From positions 62,001-126,000 of the forward strand of contig NZ_JACCAB010000001.1 in the NCBI RefSeq assembly GCF_013408925.1: a stretch of 64,000 nucleotides of DNA, given 5' to 3'. Origin of the DNA: Pedococcus badiiscoriae. GTDB taxonomy: Bacteria > Actinomycetota > Actinomycetes > Actinomycetales > Dermatophilaceae. The notes below the pieces were generated by a model. The model saw nothing but the letters and a program-made list of their open reading frames with translations, was not told where the DNA came from and ran no database searches. This document shows positions 12,393 through 59,287 of the stretch, in pieces (within the stretch, counting starts at the first letter, position 1; each line of letters opens with the position of its first letter). The translations under genes were made by a program, and so were the position numbers.

Positions 12393-13292
12393 ATGGTCAG
12401 CGTGAAGGTCGCAGGCGAGCGGGCACTGGTGCTCGGTGGTGGAGGGTCGGCGGGCAATGCCTGGCTGATCGGGGTGGTCGCGGGCCTCGCCGATGCCGGC
12501 CCGGACGTCACCCAGGCCGACCTGGTCATCGGGACGTCGGCCGGATCGACCGCCGCGGCCCAGCTCACCAGCGCGAGCCCGGCCGAGCTGTATGCCGCCA
12601 TCCTGGGCGCGGTACCGCAGCCACGGCCTGCACCGGGAAGACCCCCGGACGGTCGTGCTGCCGCGCCGCCGGCGGTGGACCACCTGGAGAGGACGGGCCG
12701 GATCATCGCCGCCGCCAGCGACCCCGCCGACATGCGCCGCCGGATGGGGGCAGCCGCCCTCGAGCTGGAGGCGGCGGCGGACGGCTCCGGGCAGGAGCGA
12801 TGGCGGGCGGTCGTCGCCGCGCGGCTACCGAGCGAGCACTGGCCGCAGCGACCAGTGCTCGTCACGGCGGTCGATGCCCGCACAGGGGAACCAGTCGTCT
12901 TCGACCGCCACAGTGGAGTCGACCTGGTGGACGCCATCGCGGCCAGCACGTCCAGCGGCGCGCCCTATGGCATCGGCGACAACAGGTACATCGACGGTGG
13001 CTACCGACGCAACGAGAATGCCGACCTGGCCGCAGGCTTCCGGCGGGTGCTGGTGCTGTCCCCGCTCGGTGGCAGGTCGCGCCACCCGGCGGAGTGGGGC
13101 ATGCAGCTCGCCGCCCAGGTCGACGAGCTGCGCGCCGGCGGCAGCGTCGTCGAGACAATCCTGCCTGACGGCGACTCCCTCGAGGCCTTCGGCACCAACC
13201 TGATGGATCCGTCGACACGTCTCCCGGCCGCTCGGGCGGGCCATCACCAGGGCGTGGTCCTGGCGGAGCGGCTGAGTGAGTTCTGGGACTGA
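12393..13292 (+). CDS. Patatin-like phospholipase family protein
   Basis: 299-aa serine lipid acyl hydrolase. The oxyanion loop GGGGSAG is at residues 15-21. The nucleophile elbow GTSAG is at 47-51 (Ser49). The catalytic Asp is in YIDGGYRRN (Asp201). All three elements are intact, so it should be active as a lipase or phospholipase. It follows the LLM oxidoreductase by four bases, so they are probably co-transcribed. GTG at 12402 is an alternative start. The last codons and the stop lie inside a 17-bp tandem repeat, which may have changed the C-terminus (AERLSEFWD). Confidence 0.9.
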   Translation: MVSVKVAGERALVLGGGGSAGNAWLIGVVAGLADAGPDVTQADLVIGTSAGSTAAAQLTSASPAELYAAILGAVPQPRPAPGRPPDGRAAAPPAVDHLERTGRIIAAASDPADMRRRMGAAALELEAAADGSGQERWRAVVAARLPSEHWPQRPVLVTAVDARTGEPVVFDRHSGVDLVDAIAASTSSGAPYGIGDNRYIDGGYRRNENADLAAGFRRVLVLSPLGGRSRHPAEWGMQLAAQVDELRAGGSVVETILPDGDSLEAFGTNLMDPSTRLPAARAGHHQGVVLAERLSEFWD

Positions 13293-13337
13293 GTGGGTTC
13301 TGGGACTGAGTGGGTTCTGGGACTGAGTGAGTGCTGG
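13271..13337. repeat. 17-bp tandem repeat across the patatin-like gene's stop codon
   Basis: About four units of consensus ACTGAGTGGGTTCTGGG starting at 13271, 13288, 13305 and 13322; the middle two are identical, the outer ones imperfect. The first unit and the start of the second encode the last residues and stop codon of the upstream gene. Confidence 0.92.
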
Positions 13338-32820: not shown

Positions 32821-34203
32821 ATGGACGATCTGACGCTCCTGTTCCAGCGGGCCGCCGACGTCGCCGCGCGCCACCGGTCCGGACTGCCCGTGACCCCGGT
32901 GCGTCCCGAGGCCGATGCCGCGACCCTGCGGCTCGCGGTGGACACGGTCCTGCGCGAGGCACCCACCCCGGCGAGCGAGGTCCTCGAGGAGCTCGTCACG
33001 GCCTTCGCGCCAGGCCTGGTCGCCACCCCGGGACCGCGGTTCTTCGGCTTCGTCATCGGGGGCGCCATGCCCGCGGCGAGCGCAGCCGACATGGTGGCTG
33101 TCGGGTGGGACCAGTGCGCCTTCAACGGCGCCCTGTCCCCCGCGGCAGCGGTGGCCGAGGAGGTCGCCGGTGGATGGCTGAAGACGCTGCTGGGGCTTCC
33201 TCCCGGCGCGTCCGTCGGCTTCGTCACGGGGGCCCAGGGGGCGAACACGGTCTGCCTGGCCACCGCGCGCCAGCACGTCCTCGCCGAGGCGGGCTGGGAC
33301 GTGGGGCGGGACGGGCTGCGTGGCGCCCCGATGGTCCGGGTGGTCGCCGGGGCCGAGCGGCACGCGACGATCGACCGGGCGCTGCGGCTGCTCGGGTTCG
33401 GCACCGCCGTCGTCGAGGAGGTCGCGGCCGACGCCAACGGCGCGCTCGACGTCGCCGACCTCGCCGAGGTGCTGGACCGGGGCGAGCAGGGACCGACCAT
33501 CGTCTGCCTCCAGGCGGGCAACGTGAACACCGGCGCGTGCGACGACCTACGCAGGGCCTGCGCGCTGGCCCGGCAGCACGGCGCGTGGGTGCACGTCGAC
33601 GGCGCCTTCGGGCTCTGGGCGGCGGCCTCCCCCACCCGGGCGCACCTCGTCGACGGGATCGACCTCGCCGACTCGTGGTCCTGCGACGGCCACAAGTGGC
33701 TCAACGTGCCCTACGACTGTGGTTTCGCCATCTGCGCGCACCCGCAGGTGCACGCCGCGGCCCTGTCCTACACCGCGGCCTACCTCACCGGACAGGGCGG
33801 CCCGACTCCCGCCATGGGTGACCTCGTGCCCGAATCCTCTCGCAGGGCAAGGGGATTCGCCGTCTGGGCGGCCCTGCGTGAGCTGGGCCGAGACGGTGTC
33901 GCAGACCTCGTCGACCGCTGTTGCGGTCTGGCGCAGCGGTTCGCCGAAGGCCTCGAGGTGGGCGGAGCGACGGTCGTCAACGACGTCGTCCTCAACCAGG
34001 TCCTGGTCAGCTTCGGCAGCGACGCCCGGACCGACCAGGTCATCGACGGCGTGCAGCGTGACGGCACCTGCTGGCTGGGTGGCACCACCTGGCGCGGCCG
34101 CCGGCTGATGCGCGTCTCGGTCTCCAACTGGTCCACGACCGAAGCCGACGTGGACCGGTCAGTGGCAGCGATCCTGCGGGTCGCCGCGGCCTCGCAGTCC
34201 TAG
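32821..34203 (+). CDS. Group II PLP-dependent decarboxylase family protein
   Basis: 460 aa. [60 protein letters not shown] (PLP-contacting Asp) and [15 protein letters not shown] (Schiff-base Lys) appear in order as in aromatic amino acid and glutamate decarboxylases. The C-terminal [17 protein letters not shown] completes the fold. The substrate is unknown; the nearness of trpD is only suggestive of an aromatic one. Its stop shares CTAG with the convergent trpD stop. ATG at 32821 follows TACCTT by seven bases. Confidence 0.88.
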
Positions 34204-42800: not shown

Positions 42801-44597
42801 TCAGTCACGCTCCTCGTGGAACCGGGGGTGCTTGTGCTCGTCGAACTCGCCCGTCGCGTGGTGCTCGGACGAGCGGGTCTCAGCCATGATCCGGGTCAGC
42901 GTGTCCGGGTCGGCGTAGACCCCACCCAGCGGCGCGGCCTCGGGGTGGTGCAGGTCGAAGGCCGGACGCTCGGAACGGATCCGCGGGAGCACGTCGAAGT
43001 TGTGGCGCGGCGGCGGGCAGGACGTCGCCCACTCCAGGGATGCGCCGTAGCCCCAGGGGTCGTCGGTCTCGACCAGGGGCGCGGTGCGCCAGGTCTTCCA
43101 GACGTTGTAGAGGAACGGCAGCGTCGAGGCGGCCAGCAGGAAGGCGCCGAAGGTGGACACCTGGTTCATCCAGGTGAAGCCGTCCTCGGGCAGGTAGTCG
43201 GCGTAGCGACGCGGCATACCGTCCACGCCCAGCACGTGCTGGATCAGGAAGGTCGTGTGGAAGCCGATGAACAGCATCCAGAAGTGGATCTTGCCGAGCG
43301 TCTCGTCGAGCATCCGTCCGGTGAACTTGGGCCACCAGAAGTAGAAGCCTGCGAACATCGCGAAGACCACGGTGCCGAAGACGACGTAGTGGAAGTGCGC
43401 GACCACGAAGTAGCTGTCCGAGAGGTGGAAGTCGAGCGCCGGGCTGGACAGGATGATGCCCGTCAGGCCGCCGAACAGGAACGTGACCAGGAAGCCGATC
43501 GCCCAGAGCATCGGCGTCTCGAAGGACAGCTTCCCGCCCCACATCGTGCCGATCCAGTTGAAGAACTTCACGCCGGTGGGCACCGCGATCAACATGGTCA
43601 TCACGGCGAAGAACGGCAGCAGGACCTGCCCGGTGGCGTACATGTGGTGGGCCCAGACCGTCACCGACAGGGCCGCGATGCCGATGGTGGCGAAGACCAG
43701 CGTCTTGTAGCCGAAGATCGGCTTGCGCGAGAACACCGGCAGGATCTCGGAGATGATGCCGAAGAACGGCAGGGCGATGATGTAGACCTCGGGGTGGCCG
43801 AAGAACCAGAACAGGTGTTGCCACAGCATGGGCCCACCGTTGCCGGCCTCGAAGATCTGGGCGCCGAACTTGCGGTCCGCACCGAGGGCGAGCAGCGCCG
43901 CCGCGAGCACCGGGAACGCCATCAGCACGAGCAGGCTGGTGATCAGGATCGTCCAGGTGAAGATCGGCATCCGGAACATCGTCATGCCCGGGGCGCGCAT
44001 GCAGATGATCGTGGTGATGAAGTTGACCGCACCGAGGATCGTGCCGAAACCACCGAGCGCGAGGCCGAAGACCCACAGGTCACCACCGAGGCCAGGGGTG
44101 TTCGAGGCGTCCGACAGCGGCGAGTAGGCGAACCACCCGAACGACGCCGCACCCGAGGGGGTGAGGAAGCCGGCCGAGGCGATCAGGCCACCGAACAGGT
44201 AGAGCCAGTAGGCGAACATGTTCAGCCGCGGGAAGGCGACGTCAGGGGCGCCGATCTGGATCGGCATGAGCGCGTTGGCGAAACCGGCGAACAGGGGTGT
44301 CGCGAACAGCAGCAGCATGATCGTGCCGTGCATCGTGAACAGCTGGTTGAACTGGTCGGGGTTGTCCACGACCTGCAGACCGGGCTGGAACAGCTCGGCT
44401 CGGATCAGCAGGGCGAGCACGCCACCGAAGATGAAGAAGATGAAGGAGGTGATGAAGTAGAGGTTGCCGATGACCTTGTGGTCGGTGGTCGACGCCCACT
44501 TCACGATCGTCTGGCCCTTGGTGAGCCTGCGGGTCGCGGTGGCCTCGGTGGAGCGGTAGTACGTCCCGGCCGAGGTGGACTCGGTTGCCGCTGCCAT
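42801..44597 (-). CDS. ctaD: Cytochrome c oxidase subunit I
   Basis: 598 aa, twelve membrane helices. [16 protein letters not shown] contains the CuB His and the cross-linked Tyr, WAHHMYATG the CuB His pair, and AHFHYVVFG the heme a and a3 His ligands. It carries the proton channel and oxygen-reducing site of the aa3 oxidase. ATG at 44597 has GGGAGC upstream and overlaps the ctaC stop by one base (TGATG). The reading to 44789 is not supported by family alignment. A hydrophilic C-terminal tail of about 40 residues is His-rich. Confidence 0.97.
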
Positions 44598-45526
44598 CAG
44601 TTGCTCCCTGCGCTCGGGATGAGGTGTTGGTCCTGGCCCATGACCTTGGCCAGGTTCAGGCTGTTGTCGAGCTGACCGTTGTTGCCCTGGCCCTTCAGCT
44701 CGGCGATGTGCTGGTCGTAGGTGGCCTGGTCGACGACCTTGACGTTGAACAGCATCTGCGAGTGGTAGGCGCCACAGAGCTCGGCACACTTGCCCTTGAA
44801 GTCACCGGTCTGCGTCGGGAAGACCTGGAACCTGTTGACCCGGCCCGGGATCATGTCGAGCTTCTGCAGGAACGCCGGCACCCAGAACGAGTGGATGACG
44901 TCACGCGAGGTGAGCACGAACTCGGTGCGCTTGTTGACCGGCAGGTAGAGGGTCGGCAGGTTCTTCTCCGCGCCCGGCTTCCCGGTGAGCTCGGCCTGGG
45001 TGCCGCTCTCGTAGGTCTGCTCGTTGACGTAGTTGAAGTCCCAGCTCCACTTCTTGCCCACCACGTTGACGACGACGTCGGGGTGCTTGGAGGTGTCGAG
45101 CAGGGCTGCCTCGTCACGAGCGGTGTAGTAGAAGAGCACCGCGATCATGAAGACAGGGACGATCGTGTAGAGGATCTCCATCGGCACGTTGTAACGAAGC
45201 TGCACCGGCAGGGCGGTGTCGTCCTTCGCGCGGCGATAGGCCACGACACACCATCCGATCAGGCCCCAGACGATGGCCCCGACGATGAGCGCGGCGATCC
45301 AGGCGCCGTTCCACAGCGAGGTCACCCGCTCCCCGCCCTGGGTCACCGCACGCGGGAGGAAACCGTCCTGCACGCGCCCCGCACACCCCGAGAGGGTGAG
45401 GGCGACGAGCGACAGCCCGAGAGCCGTGATCGATCTCCTGCTTGCAGTCCGCCGCCGGGGTGGGCGCGGCGCAGAGACGTCCTGCTGACGCAACGGTGCA
45501 CCTTCTTCGAGACAGTGATGGGCCAT
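44597..45526 (-). CDS. ctaC: Cytochrome c oxidase subunit II
   Basis: 309 aa from ATG at 45526 (298 from TTG at 45493). A lipoprotein-type signal ([10 protein letters not shown]) is followed by two helices and a periplasm-facing cupredoxin domain. [12 protein letters not shown] gives the CuA ligands (CxxxC, His, Met) with the first His in [10 protein letters not shown]. It receives electrons from QcrC and passes them to subunit I. A TAGGGT box is eight bases before the ATG; the TTG has AGAAGG before it. Choice of start is uncertain. It leads the ctaC-ctaD-ctaF operon and is divergent from the cysteine-desulfurase-like gene. Confidence 0.93.
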
Positions 45527-45588: not shown

Positions 45589-46782
45589 GTGGCCAACCCC
45601 TCCCCGGACGACGGTTCGGTCCGCGCGATCCTCGATGCCGCGCCCGGCCCCATGCACCCTCGCGCGAGCCAGACCCTCCTCGCGGCGATCGAGGCCGGCT
45701 GGGCCGATCCGCGGCGCCTGCACCGCGAGGCGAGGACCGCCAGGCGGCTGCTCGACCAGGCCCGCGAGGTGCTCGCGGCGGGGCTCGCGGTGCGACCCCC
45801 GGAGGTCGCCTTCGCGCCCGACGGCCCGACCGCCGTGCGCTGGATGCTCGACGGCTTCCGGTATGCCGGCCGCCGCCGCGGGACGCGCGTCGTCGCCTCC
45901 GCCGTCGAGCACTCGGCGGTCCTGGTCCCCGGGCGCCACGCCGCCGACTCGCTCGGTGACCCGCCCGCGTTCGCGACGGTCGCGGTGGACGGGACGGGGC
46001 GGGTCGACCTCGCGGCGTGGGCCGGGGCCGTCGAGGTCCCCGGCACCGTGGCCGCCGCCCTCCAGCACGCCAACGGCGAGGTCGGCACCGTGCAGCCGCT
46101 CGCGGCTGCCTGGGCGCTGTGCCAGCGCGCCGGGGTGCCACTCGCGGTCGACGCCCAGGCGTCCCTGGGCCGGGCACCCTCCCCCACGACCTACGACGCG
46201 CTCGCCGGCGACGCCCAGTCGTGGGGTGGTCCTGGCGGTCTCGGGCTGGTCGTGCTGCCCGAGCGGTCACGCTGGCTGCTGCCGGGGGCCCCCGACCCGG
46301 ACGCCGCGCTCAGCGGCGCCACGCGACACACCCCGTGGGTGCCGCTGGCCCTGGCTGCTGCCGAGGCCTGGCAGCAGACGGCGGCAGCCCGCGACTCCGA
46401 CGCCGCCGAGGCCGCCCTCCTCGTGGACCGGGTGCGCGCCGCCGCTGCCGCGGTCCCGGACGTCGAGGTCGTCGGCGACCCGGTCGACCGGCTCCCCCAC
46501 GTCGTGACCTTCTCGGCCCTGTACGCCGACGGTGAGGCCCTCGTGCGCGAGTTCGACCGTCGGGGCTTCGGGGTGGGGTCGGGGTCGGCGTGCACCGCCA
46601 GCACCCTGGAACCCAGCCACGTCCTGGCGGCCATGGGCGCCCTGACGCACGGCAACGTCCGCGTCACGCTGCCCCTTGCGGCTGTGGCTCCCGACCGGGC
46701 CGCCCAGGTGGACGCCTTCTGCGCCGTCATCGGCGACGTGGTCGCCTCGGTCCGCGCCGAGCTCGGAGCACACCGCCTGTGA
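45589..46782 (+). CDS. Cysteine desulfurase-like protein lacking the PLP lysine
   Basis: 397 aa of the class V aminotransferase (NifS/IscS) fold. Matching parts: ASAVEHSAVLVPG (PLP-stacking His), ALQHANGEVGTVQPL (family ANxEVGTxQP), and GSGSACTASTLEPSHVL, the desulfurase loop with the persulfide Cys. But where relatives read SAHKWGGPxGxG, this one reads AGDAQSWGGPGGLG: His-Lys is replaced by Gln-Ser, so no Schiff-base lysine is present. The usual DAAQSxG is DAQASLG, shifting the Gln. It overlaps a TusA-like gene by four bases. It may be a PLP-free sulfur-relay or scaffold protein; enzyme activity is doubtful. Confidence 0.85.
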   Translation: MANPSPDDGSVRAILDAAPGPMHPRASQTLLAAIEAGWADPRRLHREARTARRLLDQAREVLAAGLAVRPPEVAFAPDGPTAVRWMLDGFRYAGRRRGTRVVASAVEHSAVLVPGRHAADSLGDPPAFATVAVDGTGRVDLAAWAGAVEVPGTVAAALQHANGEVGTVQPLAAAWALCQRAGVPLAVDAQASLGRAPSPTTYDALAGDAQSWGGPGGLGLVVLPERSRWLLPGAPDPDAALSGATRHTPWVPLALAAAEAWQQTAAARDSDAAEAALLVDRVRAAAAAVPDVEVVGDPVDRLPHVVTFSALYADGEALVREFDRRGFGVGSGSACTASTLEPSHVLAAMGALTHGNVRVTLPLAAVAPDRAAQVDAFCAVIGDVVASVRAELGAHRL

Positions 46783-47105
46783 GCCACGCCCCCGCCGACG
46801 GCCCCCACGACGCCCGCCCCGGCCGCCACGACGCCCGCCCCGGCCGCCACGACGTCCCCGAGGACCCGGTCGCGTCCGCGCCGGTCGTCGTCGACGCCCG
46901 CGGCCTGCGATGCCCGCTGCCCGTCATCCGGCTGGCACAGGTCGCGGCCGACGCTCCCCGGGGAGCCGTGATCGAGGTGTGGGCCACGGACCCGGCAGCC
47001 AGGGCGGACATCCCGGCGTGGTGTCGCCTGCGCGGTCAGACCTACCTCGGCGAGGTGCCAGCGGAAGGCGGCGCCGCGGCATACCGGGTGCGGCTGGCGT
47101 CCTGA
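46779..47105 (+). CDS. TusA-family sulfurtransferase-like protein
   Basis: 108 aa. VVVDARGLRCPLPVIRLAQV has the CPxP motif with the sulfur-carrying Cys. The rest, VIEVWATDPAARADIPAWCRLRG, matches the two-layer alpha/beta fold of TusA/YeeD. An N-terminal extension of about 38 residues has two HDARPGR copies from a 21-base repeat and is likely disordered. GTG at 46779 overlaps the stop of the upstream gene (GTGA), so translation is coupled. It probably accepts sulfur from the partner protein; in other actinobacteria the two are sometimes one fused protein (from memory). Confidence 0.88.
   Translation: MSHAPADGPHDARPGRHDARPGRHDVPEDPVASAPVVVDARGLRCPLPVIRLAQVAADAPRGAVIEVWATDPAARADIPAWCRLRGQTYLGEVPAEGGAAAYRVRLAS
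46806..46853. repeat. 21-bp tandem repeat in the TusA-like gene
   Basis: Units starting CACGACGCCCGCC at 46806-46826 and 46827-46847, plus six bases of a third. Encodes repeated HDARPGR near the N-terminus; the unit is a multiple of three. Confidence 0.92.
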
Positions 47106-47110
47106 CGCGG

Positions 47111-47194
47111 GCTCAGGAAGCGCCGACTCAAGAAGCGCCGACTCAGCAAGCGCCGACTCAGGAAGCGCCGACTCAGGAAGCGCCGACTCAGGTA
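47111..47194. repeat. 15-bp tandem repeat, about 5.5 copies, at the aat stop codon
   Basis: Consensus GACTCAGGAAGCGCC; copies begin about 47110, 47125, 47140, 47155 and 47170, with a partial copy to 47194. Read on the minus strand, every unit contains TGA in the same frame as the aat stop codon (47188-47190), giving a run of in-frame stops. Confidence 0.95.
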
Positions 47195-49678: not shown

Positions 49679-50071
49679 TCAGCTGAAGGAGTCCCCGCAG
49701 GCGCAGGAGCTGCCCGCGTTGGGGTTGTCGATCGTGAAGCCCTGCTTCTCGATCGTGTCGGCGAAGTCGATGCTCGCGTCGACGAGGTAAGGGGCGCTCA
49801 TCCGGTCCACGACGACCTCGACACCATCGAAGTCGCGCACGAGGTCACCGTCGAGGGTGCGCTCGTCGAAGTAGAGCTGGTAGATGAGGCCGGAGCACCC
49901 ACCGGGCTGCACGCCGACGCGCAGACGCAGGTCGTCGCGGCCCTCCTGCTCGAGCAGGGACTTCACCTTGGCAGCAGCAACATCGGTGAGGAGCACGCCG
50001 TGCGTGGCCTCGGCAGGCGCCTGGGTCGCGTCGGCGGTCGTCGCTTCGGCGGTCTGGTCCTGAACACTCAT
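49679..50071 (-). CDS. erpA: HesB/IscA-family iron-sulfur insertion protein
   Basis: 130 aa. A-type Fe-S carrier. GVLLTDVAAAKVKSLLEQEG, LRLRVGVQPGGCSGLIYQLYFDE (first Cys), and the terminal SSCACGDSF (CxC) give the three conserved cysteines. The N-terminal 30 residues are Ala/Thr-rich and probably disordered. It receives a cluster and passes it to apo-enzymes such as those with [4Fe-4S]. ATG at 50071 has AAGGA nine bases upstream. Corresponds to Rv2204c by position (from memory). Confidence 0.92.
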   Translation of the reverse strand: MSVQDQTAEATTADATQAPAEATHGVLLTDVAAAKVKSLLEQEGRDDLRLRVGVQPGGCSGLIYQLYFDERTLDGDLVRDFDGVEVVVDRMSAPYLVDASIDFADTIEKQGFTIDNPNAGSSCACGDSFS

Positions 50072-50167
50072 GGTGATGAGTCCTTCATGTCGGTGGAGGT
50101 TGGCCACCAGTGCCAACCTGCGGTTCTCGCGAAATGTTCCCCGCGCACCTCCCACTGTACGTCGTGG

Positions 50168-57610: not shown

Positions 57611-59287
57611 GTGATCGTGTTCGAGGCCGTGACCATCGCGTATGCCGGCGCGTCGGCGCTTCGCGACGCCTCCTTCGCGATCCCCGAGGGTGAGCTGGTG
57701 CTCGTGGTCGGGCCGACCGGATCGGGCAAGACGTCCCTGCTGCGCTGCCTGGGCGGCCCCGCGACGTCCGGTGACACCCCCTCGACCCGCGGCGTCGACC
57801 ACGCCCACGGCAAGGTCACCCGGACCGGCCGGGTGCTCGTGGACGGGGCCGACCTGTGGGGGGCCGGGACTGACGAGGAGAGGGCCGTCGTCGGGCTGGT
57901 CCGACAGGATCCCGCCGCCGACCTGGTCGACGGGACGGTCGAGTCCGTGATCGCGGCAGGCGTGCGACCCCGCGCGGACGACCCGCACCGCGGACAGCGA
58001 CAGGTCGAGGAGACCCTCGACCTGCTCGGTCTCGCGGGCCTGCGCAGCCGTCCGGTGGCAGAGCTGTCGGGTGGACAGGTGCAGCGCGTGGCCATCGGCG
58101 TCGCGCTCGCCGGTGGCCCTCGTGTCCTCGTGCTCGACGAGCCCACGTCCGCGCTCGATCCGGTGGCTGCCGAGGAGGTCCTCGCGATCCTGCACCGCCT
58201 CGTCCACGACGTCGGCGTCACGGTGGTCGTGGCCGAGCACCGGCTCGAAAGGGTCGTGCACCACGCTGACTCGGTCCTGCTCGTCGAGGCGGGGCGGGTG
58301 ATCGGGCCGCTCGATCCGGCGACCGCGATGACTCGCTCGCCCATCCGCCCTCCGGTGGTCGACCTGGGCCTGCGGCTCGGCTGGTCCCCCGTCCCGCTGT
58401 CGGTCCGGGCCGGTCGGCGCCAGGCCAAGGGCCTGCGGGCCGCACTGGATCACGACCGGTCTGGCGACGTGCCGGGCGACCGGCGGGACGACCGGCGGGA
58501 CGACCGGCGGGACGACCGGCGGGACGACCGGCGGGACGACCGGAGGGACGACCGGCGGGACGACGGGCCGGGCACCCGGGGCGAGGTGCGAGTCGACGTG
58601 CATCGGCTCAGCCTGCTGCGCGGACAGGTCGTGGCGCTGCGCACGGTGACGCTCCAGGTGCACGGGGGCGAGGTGGTCGTCCTGATGGGGCGCAACGGCG
58701 CCGGCAAGTCGAGCCTGCTCGGCGCGCTGCACGGGAGCCTCGGCCCGACCTCGGGACGCGTCCGGGTGTCGGGTCCGTCGGCCCTCGCGCCACAGGATCC
58801 GGCCGTCCTGCTCACAGACGCTGCAGTTGGGTCGCAGCTGACCGCCAACGACGCCGCCCACGCGCTCATCCCCGGGTCGAGCGCCACCCTCCTCGAGCGC
58901 CTGGTCCCAGGTCTGCCCAGCGCCCGTCACCCCACCGAGCTCTCAGAGGGCCAGAAGATGTGCGTGGCGCTGAGTCTCGTCCTGGCCCGCGGGAGCCAGG
59001 TGGTCCTGCTCGACGAACCCACCCGCGGACTCGACTACCAGGCCAAGGCCAGGCTCACCACCCTGCTGTCGCAGCTGGCCGCCGCCGGCCGCACGGTCAT
59101 CCTGGCCACCCACGACGTCGAGCTGGCGGCCGACGTCGCGACCCGGGCGATCATCCTCGCCGACGGGGAGGTCGTCGCCGACGGGCCTGCAAGGCGCATC
59201 CTGAGCGACTCGCCGGCCTTCGCACCGCAGGTGGCCAAGGTGATGCACCCCCTGCCGCTCCTTCGGGTGTCCGACGTCGTCAGCTAG
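57611..59287 (+). CDS. Fused two-domain ECF-type ABC transporter ATPase
   Basis: 558 aa with two ATPase cassettes in one chain. Cassette 1: Walker A GPTGSGKTSL (about residue 34), signature ELSGGQVQR, Walker B VLVLDEPTS, switch His in VAEHRLERV. Cassette 2: Walker A GRNGAGKSSL (about 360), signature ELSEGQKMC (SGG replaced by SEG), Walker B VVLLDEPTRG, His in ATHDVE. Both are complete enough for ATP hydrolysis. The linker has a DRRD-type repeat from a 12-bp tandem. It resembles EcfA-EcfA' of vitamin or cobalt importers, but no EcfT or substrate subunit is in the window. GTG at 57611 uses the shared promoter. Confidence 0.88.
   Translation: MIVFEAVTIAYAGASALRDASFAIPEGELVLVVGPTGSGKTSLLRCLGGPATSGDTPSTRGVDHAHGKVTRTGRVLVDGADLWGAGTDEERAVVGLVRQDPAADLVDGTVESVIAAGVRPRADDPHRGQRQVEETLDLLGLAGLRSRPVAELSGGQVQRVAIGVALAGGPRVLVLDEPTSALDPVAAEEVLAILHRLVHDVGVTVVVAEHRLERVVHHADSVLLVEAGRVIGPLDPATAMTRSPIRPPVVDLGLRLGWSPVPLSVRAGRRQAKGLRAALDHDRSGDVPGDRRDDRRDDRRDDRRDDRRDDRRDDRRDDGPGTRGEVRVDVHRLSLLRGQVVALRTVTLQVHGGEVVVLMGRNGAGKSSLLGALHGSLGPTSGRVRVSGPSALAPQDPAVLLTDAAVGSQLTANDAAHALIPGSSATLLERLVPGLPSARHPTELSEGQKMCVALSLVLARGSQVVLLDEPTRGLDYQAKARLTTLLSQLAAAGRTVILATHDVELAADVATRAIILADGEVVADGPARRILSDSPAFAPQVAKVMHPLPLLRVSDVVS
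58478..58564. repeat. 12-bp tandem repeat in the ATPase linker, about seven copies
   Basis: Unit GACGACCGGCGG repeated from about 58487 to 58558, with part copies at both ends and one AGG variant. It encodes repeated Asp-Asp-Arg-Arg between the two ATPase domains. The unit is a multiple of three, so the frame tolerates copy changes. Confidence 0.95.

Follow-up and report, generated by a model that had tools for sequence, protein, structure and literature searches.

Here we describe a class-V (IscS-like) protein that is probably a pseudo-desulfurase, maintained by selection and independent of PLP, encoded in a 64,000-nucleotide stretch of the Pedococcus badiiscoriae genome that we call the window. 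The PLP lysine is what normally defines a cysteine desulfurase; the lineage described here has dropped this catalytic residue throughout yet keeps the sulfur-handling cysteine, and usually TusA, at a locus where orthologues retain the lysine. Our preferred explanation, held tentatively at a probability of roughly 45%, is that the gene is an orthologue of an ordinary TusA-coupled, PLP-dependent desulfurase that would have lost PLP catalysis and may now work without PLP, as an acceptor of persulfide or a platform for it that is loaded in trans. Such matched pairs of enzyme and pseudoenzyme make it possible to ask which roles TusA and the cysteine loop have beyond desulfuration, and whether persulfide can be loaded in trans. 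Many Micrococcales proteins that are annotated as "cysteine desulfurase" are probably not desulfurases.

Results

The locus

The gene, the TusA-like gene that follows it and the respiratory and Fe-S neighbours referred to below are these:

45589..46782, + strand: class-V (IscS-like) protein without the PLP lysine, 397 aa, zero lysines (from the translation)
46779..47105, + strand: TusA-like sulfur carrier, with the CPxP Cys45 at 46911-46913 (from Pfam and the translation)
44597..45526, - strand: ctaC, cytochrome c oxidase subunit II, standing divergent to the gene in most family members; the start is our choice
49679..50155, - strand: A-type Fe-S carrier, HesB/ErpA-like, PF01521
37492..38613, + strand: qcrA, the Rieske protein of the neighbouring ctaE-qcrCAB cluster

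An earlier, sequence-only reading of this DNA had claimed a clean reading frame that overlaps a TusA gene with an intact CPxP cysteine, the pair standing divergent from ctaC, and this layout holds. The frame at 45589-46782 (+) encodes 397 amino acids with no internal stop and no frameshift, and the GTG start codon of tusA at 46779 overlaps the preceding stop codon by 4 bases. The tusA product carries CPLP, with the cysteine at position 45, and matches PF01206 at 63.4 bits against a cut-off of 28.6; it misses the NCBIfam equivalog cut-off for E. coli-type TusA (40.9 of 78 bits) and is the sole PF01206 match in the genome. On the other side, 62 bases separate the start of the lysine-less gene from the chosen ctaC start (45526). 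Beyond ctaC lie ctaD and ctaF and then ctaE-qcrC-qcrA(Rieske)-qcrB, where ctaC and ctaD of the window are presumably what we have named them from their sequence. The opposite flank holds aat, a PfkB-family kinase, an FMN-reductase-like gene, the ErpA/HesB-like A-type Fe-S carrier and a glycerate kinase.

No promoter or terminator consensus was found between ctaC and the lysine-less gene, no RNA element reached the gathering threshold in or near the window, and the plasmid collection gave no match at E 1e-40. Tandem repeats occur at 47112-47192 (15-base unit, 5.4 copies, lying after the stop codon of tusA and before the convergent aat), at 46783-46854 (21-base unit within the tusA start, encoding a repeated HDARPGR in the N-terminal extension), at 58473-58568 (12-base unit, 8.1 copies) and at 13272-13337 (17-base unit, 3.9 copies). 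A weak Aminotran_5 match (31 bits) in a + frame at 33340-33606 is perhaps another PLP-type gene in the window.

Residues of the window protein

The positions that matter for cofactor binding and sulfur handling are as follows:

46219..46221, + strand: Ser211, codon TCG, at the position of the PLP lysine (K206 of E. coli IscS)
46210..46212, + strand: Asp208, codon GAC, at the position of the PLP-phosphate serine (S203 of E. coli IscS)
46150..46161, + strand: D188-A191 (VDAQASLG), the PLP N1 Asp position kept and the Gln183 position occupied by Ala
46579..46629, + strand: conserved cysteine loop SGSACTASTLEPSHVLA, with Cys335 at 46591-46593

Read again, the codons at 46210-46224 are GAC GCC CAG TCG TGG, or DAQSW, and the earlier reading was correct that DAQSWGGP, with Ser211, stands where relatives have SAHKWGGP, a motif that it had named and that most lysine-containing orthologues do carry. 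It was also correct about the neighbouring motif, DAQASLG in place of DAAQSxG, and about the persulfide loop, since GSGSACTASTLEPSHVL is intact and bears C335. Binding of PLP through another lysine, which had been named as a possible objection, is excluded for the window protein, which contains none. Three further positions, T76, S203 and H205, which we take to be the PLP-phosphate-site residues, have become Pro80, Asp208 and Gln210, and none matches the desulfurase residue; the Asp for the PLP ring nitrogen (D188) and the stacking His (H108) are kept.

The protein belongs to the class-V aminotransferase family, scoring 74 bits with PF00266 against a cut-off of 21.5, and its family profile matches solved desulfurases at E of about 1e-74. 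It misses every NCBIfam equivalog cut-off tried (NifS, IscS, SufS and others), the best being NifS at 141.6 of 530.75 bits, and four relatives taken from a second protein search likewise fall below these cut-offs.

The lysine is absent throughout the lineage

At the lysine column the query and its 120 best listed matches, out of 6,584 database matches, all have Ser (121/121), and C335 is kept in all of them (121/121). We then searched 198 genomes of the order, taking 197 bits or more as the family level; the next matches, which resemble ordinary IscS, score 129 bits or less. This gave 48 family-level places in 47 genomes, all of which were read, and the lysine is missing from every one (30/30 and 18/18). 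Some genera of the same family had no family-level match. A sequencing error that restores HK, another objection raised in advance, is thus ruled out. The loop could be read in 47 of the 48 places and has its cysteine in all 47; among them is L223, whose loop is degenerate. This locus and L224 are two diverged copies in one genome (G159), neither of them near ctaC in the stretch read, and one has the loop GCGCTC. In 45 of the 48 places (30/30 and 15/18) ctaC was seen; it was not seen for either G159 copy or for a fragment at a contig edge. TusA adjoins in 35 of the 48, and in 28 of the first 30, once as a fusion.

We looked for the ordinary IscS orthologue in 30 of these genomes and located it in 29, with its lysine in 29/29 and its cysteine in 29/29; the remaining genome is 73% complete. 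Of 30 lysine-less members, 23 contain no lysine at all; we rejected lysine depletion as a special trait, for the ordinary IscS of the same genomes holds only 1-5 lysines, and a count of zero is therefore not remarkable beyond the missing PLP lysine.

For the lysine-less gene dN/dS is about 0.17-0.30 in 7 close pairs (0.19-0.55 for TusA in the same pairs), and the gene is under purifying selection. The alignment and scoring of the homologs beside ctaC that the sequence-only reading had proposed ends with a loss that is real and conserved. These values bear on the idea that we are looking at a decaying relic without a function of its own. The drift of residues in the PLP pocket, the genera of the same family without a family-level match and the degenerate loop of L223 would all suit such a relic; the dN/dS, the window gene free of stop and frameshift, a C335 kept throughout the alignment, an Asp203 fixed in 43/43 and several positions less variable than in the lysine-containing group speak against it, and we regard decay as decidedly improbable.

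Orthologues that retain the lysine at this locus

A class-wide search of 394 genomes and a scan of named genomes, in which we took the best 80 of 583 confirmed places, found orthologues beside ctaC, mostly with SAHKWGGP, in Streptomyces, Kitasatospora, Nonomuraea, Microbispora, Micromonospora, Nocardioides, Kribbella and Jiangella. TusA adjoins these lysine-containing orthologues and is fused to them in 10 of 11 Streptomycetaceae rows. Among the best 80 named loci, 75 gave a full row and 5 gave none; ctaC is present in 74 of the 75 and TusA in 72, and the sole locus without ctaC, L165, sits 134 bases from the contig start. In the 62 loci for which both 8-kb flanks were available, ctaF occurs in all 62 and an ErpA/HesB gene in 60, the latter divided as 51/53 lysine-containing or unscored loci and 9/9 lysine-less loci. 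Because both forms share these ctaC, TusA, ctaF and ErpA/HesB surroundings, we treat them as the same gene and not as unrelated paralogues. Neither of the first two links is universal, since 30 further genomes of the class lack ctaC in the stretch read in 4 cases (L238, L241, L244 and L245, all lysine-containing) and TusA in 6.

Of 149 genomes sampled from the phylum, 12 that lie outside the class match strongly, at E 1e-95 or better. Each of these 12 has the lysine; in the stretch read, TusA is present in six and ctaC in none. With the lysine in 12/12 and TusA in six, lysine plus TusA is likely to be the ancestral state.

The last alignment contains 196 rows from 212 loci considered; 14 loci under 340 aa (including the fusion L031 and five named loci) and L223 and L225 were left out. 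The lysine is present in 103 of the 196 members and absent from 93, where it is replaced by Asp (48), Ser (25), Ala (7), Thr (5), Gly (5) or Met (3); close species occur together in the sample, and these loci are therefore not independent samples. The C335 column has Cys in 195 of 196 rows, and the cysteine of the remaining row, L054, which is shortened in the alignment, was seen in a separate reading of the locus, which makes 196/196. At L242 (genome G424) the motif is SAHMWGGP, one base from Lys; the protein contains no lysine but is unchanged at the Ser203 and His205 positions, and this looks like a recent loss.

How often the lysine was lost

Several losses of the lysine are likely, not proven. 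A first quick tree of 94 rows needed 4 changes, 2 of them forced by well-supported branches, and did not reject a single lysine-less clade (AU p 0.168). A second quick tree of 89 rows needed 6 changes, 3 of them forced, and again did not reject the single clade (p 0.504), its search being incomplete in that two forced groupings outscored the free tree. The careful tree of 45 rows needed 7 changes, and none of its 200 bootstrap trees had one change, while its well-supported branches force only 1; it rejects a single lysine-less clade (AU p 0.024) on rows that were chosen by hand after the other trees had been seen, namely 18 of 57 lysine-less and 27 of 31 lysine-containing members, the longest branches being excluded. 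One family, f54, contains both lysine states. A broader version of our preferred reading builds on repeated loss: on several independent occasions a TusA-coupled desulfurase would have become a PLP-free protein whose cysteine loop is kept to relay sulfur or to ligate a cluster and which serves the oxidase and Fe-S neighbourhood, and the conserved function would never have been desulfuration itself. We consider this version rather unlikely.

A remodelled PLP pocket

We compared the pocket of 43 lysine-less members of the window's lineage with that of 88 lysine-containing members. At the S203 position 39 of the 43 have Asp and all 88 have Ser; among the query and its 120 best listed matches the phosphate-site serine has become D or E in 120 of 121. 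The stacking His is kept in 88/88 lysine-containing members and in only 16/43 lysine-less ones (the window protein included), where Arg takes its place in 26/43; in the query and its 120 best listed matches it is present in 120 of 121, and the remaining sequence is truncated. Gln183 is kept in 0/43 against 69/88. The Asp to the PLP ring (D180), Arg358 and the loop Cys are each kept in 43/43 and in 88/88. With the phosphate Ser, the His and Gln183 changed and the Cys kept, the pocket has been remodelled around an unchanged loop. Some positions have even become stricter: Asp203 of the window protein is fixed in 43/43 where 73/88 have Ser, Ala334 is found in 43/43 where the lysine-containing members have Ser (65/88) or Ala (23/88), and several positions vary less among the 43 than among the 88.

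In E. coli IscS the K206A, H104Q and Q183E variants are described as having no desulfurase activity, and K206A as still binding some PLP (PMC9978102). In view of that residual binding, we call the window protein probably, and not certainly, PLP-free. The same residual binding would suit a protein that is still a PLP enzyme, with the cofactor held non-covalently and a slow reaction or another substrate, and the N1 Asp and Arg358, kept in every lysine-less member, and the stacking His of the listed close relatives point the same way. Against it stand the acidic residue at the phosphate-site serine of nearly all the listed close relatives, the Arg that replaces the stacking His in 26/43 and the inactivity of K206A itself, and we judge a surviving PLP enzyme very improbable.

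TusA and the respiratory neighbours

In the TusA proteins beside either type of gene, three residues by E. coli numbering, Cys19 of CPxP, D45 and D51, are invariant (163/163 sequences). The coupling to TusA that the sequence-only reading had put forward is borne out in that TusA adjoins the gene in most cases, but TusA is not an obligatory partner. In thirteen of the 48 places of the order, no TusA lies within 400 bp; 8 of these are in family f10 (the second G159 copy apart) and one is a contig edge. The cysteine is retained in 12/12 readable loops of these places, and TusA thus cannot be the only partner. Beside some members of other families, too, no TusA was found. In f10, at L213-L220, the lysine-less gene stays beside ctaC with its Cys intact and tusA gone from the locus, and at L220 the ErpA/HesB gene is its direct, tail-to-tail neighbour.

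The contacts between E. coli IscS and TusA are described as involving IscS W45 and E49 (needed for TusA binding), D52 and R55, and TusA R27 (PMC2854127). In the window pair the W45 and E49 positions are Arg and the R27 position is Ala, and these contacts are not conserved in the lysine-containing members either. Position D52 is Asp or Glu in 41/43 and R55 is Arg in 43/43 of the lysine-less lineage, values that are not diagnostic for a TusA contact because ordinary IscS has Glu and Arg there as well.

In our preferred reading, C335 would take sulfur produced elsewhere, the ordinary IscS of that genome being one possible producer, or would draw it from a small persulfide. The receiver would be TusA, through its CPxP cysteine, or a different acceptor in members that have lost TusA. 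What we infer here is that the lysine-containing orthologues are active, that PLP is absent, that C335 carries a persulfide obtained from such a source, and that TusA receives it.

The constancy of ctaC could also be read as a role outside sulfur chemistry altogether, for example as a regulator or assembly protein tied to ctaC expression whose cysteine loop senses redox state. It is true that ctaC is a more constant neighbour than TusA, both in the order and among the best 80 named loci, and that it persists where TusA was lost. Yet the orthologues that have the lysine at this position of the genome resemble working enzymes, with TusA fused to them in Streptomycetaceae, and both G159 copies and 4 of the 30 further loci are without ctaC in the stretch read; a non-sulfur role seems improbable to us.

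A special role in CuA- or heme-related thiolation of the oxidase, also suggested in the sequence-only reading, is unsupported, the link to the oxidase being genomic, a conserved adjacency of genes. Copper insertion through SCO1/SenC (PF02630) was rejected as a target, since SCO1/SenC does not track the gene. Formate-dehydrogenase sulfuration (FdhD, PF02634) was rejected as well, FdhD being absent from the gene-bearing genomes G008, G009, G027, G028, G044 and G045 among others. The window genome (G000) encodes ctaC and has no SCO1/SenC match, and copper insertion may use another factor there.

Discussion

Natural loss of the PLP lysine in this fold has precedent. A. fulgidus IscS is described as inactive through a Lys-to-Asp change and as contributing a Cys that ligates the IscU-bound cluster, and M. 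acetivorans IscS1 as also being without the PLP lysine (PMC7585200). Archaeal IscS proteins without the lysine are already known; for bacteria, the open-licence literature searched yielded no TusA-coupled, orthologous series that spans a class and shows both states at a single locus. By titles and the starts of abstracts, no description of this locus or of a lysine-less TusA-coupled desulfurase was recognised in the literature searched.

The archaeal case suggests a scaffold of the Archaeoglobus type, which would carry no sulfur and in which C335 would ligate an Fe-S cluster or a metal on a partner such as the nearby ErpA/HesB-like carrier, perhaps for the Rieske and oxidase branch. The lysine is replaced and the cysteine kept in the window protein as in the A. 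fulgidus type, and the best PDB matches by the family profile are 4r5f and 4eb5, entries that, with 4eb7 and 4hvk, we take to be A. fulgidus IscS. Of these two, 4eb5 has SSNDIYGP, with Asp at the lysine position, and DATAS without the Gln, while 4r5f has Lys there. The HesB/ErpA gene in nearly all the loci with both flanks, and its tail-to-tail position at the TusA-less L220, fit as well. Other observations weigh the other way: the single window sequence matches PDB 4isy best and not 4r5f or 4eb5; the usual neighbour is TusA and not IscU; HesB adjoins lysine-containing and lysine-less forms alike and is thus not specific; and the only NifU_N match of the genome, at C1:3083648, comes right after a class-V gene (3082434-3083588) far from the locus. 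We hold the scaffold to be unlikely and keep to the persulfide acceptor or platform as the preferred reading.

Among characterised systems, the SspA and DndA desulfurases of phosphorothioation resemble the window protein in sequence, with PADLOC scores of 145 and 137 bits in a run that covered the window protein, its TusA and P0164 only. A defence role was set aside as unlikely, the similarity being at family level only. The Pfam-identified neighbours are cta, qcr, aat, the PfkB kinase and the Fe-S carrier, not Dnd or Ssp proteins. A. fulgidus IscS is similar in that, as seen in 4eb5, the PLP lysine has been lost naturally and the Cys retained; it differs in being archaeal, in having been studied with IscU and not TusA, and in that 4eb5 keeps the S203 serine, which is Asp in the window protein. 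E. coli IscS with TusA shares the fold family, the Cys328 loop and the TusA partner, but is an active PLP enzyme whose W45/E49 and TusA R27 contacts are not conserved in the window pair. The lysine-containing TusA-coupled desulfurases of actinomycetes ("cysteine desulfurase/sulfurtransferase TusA family protein") resemble the window protein in the ctaC-divergent locus, in a TusA next door or fused, in the Cys loop and in about 50% identity; they mostly keep SAHKWGGP, DAAQS, EHS and SGT, whereas the window protein has lost the Lys, Gln183, the phosphate Ser/Thr and His205.
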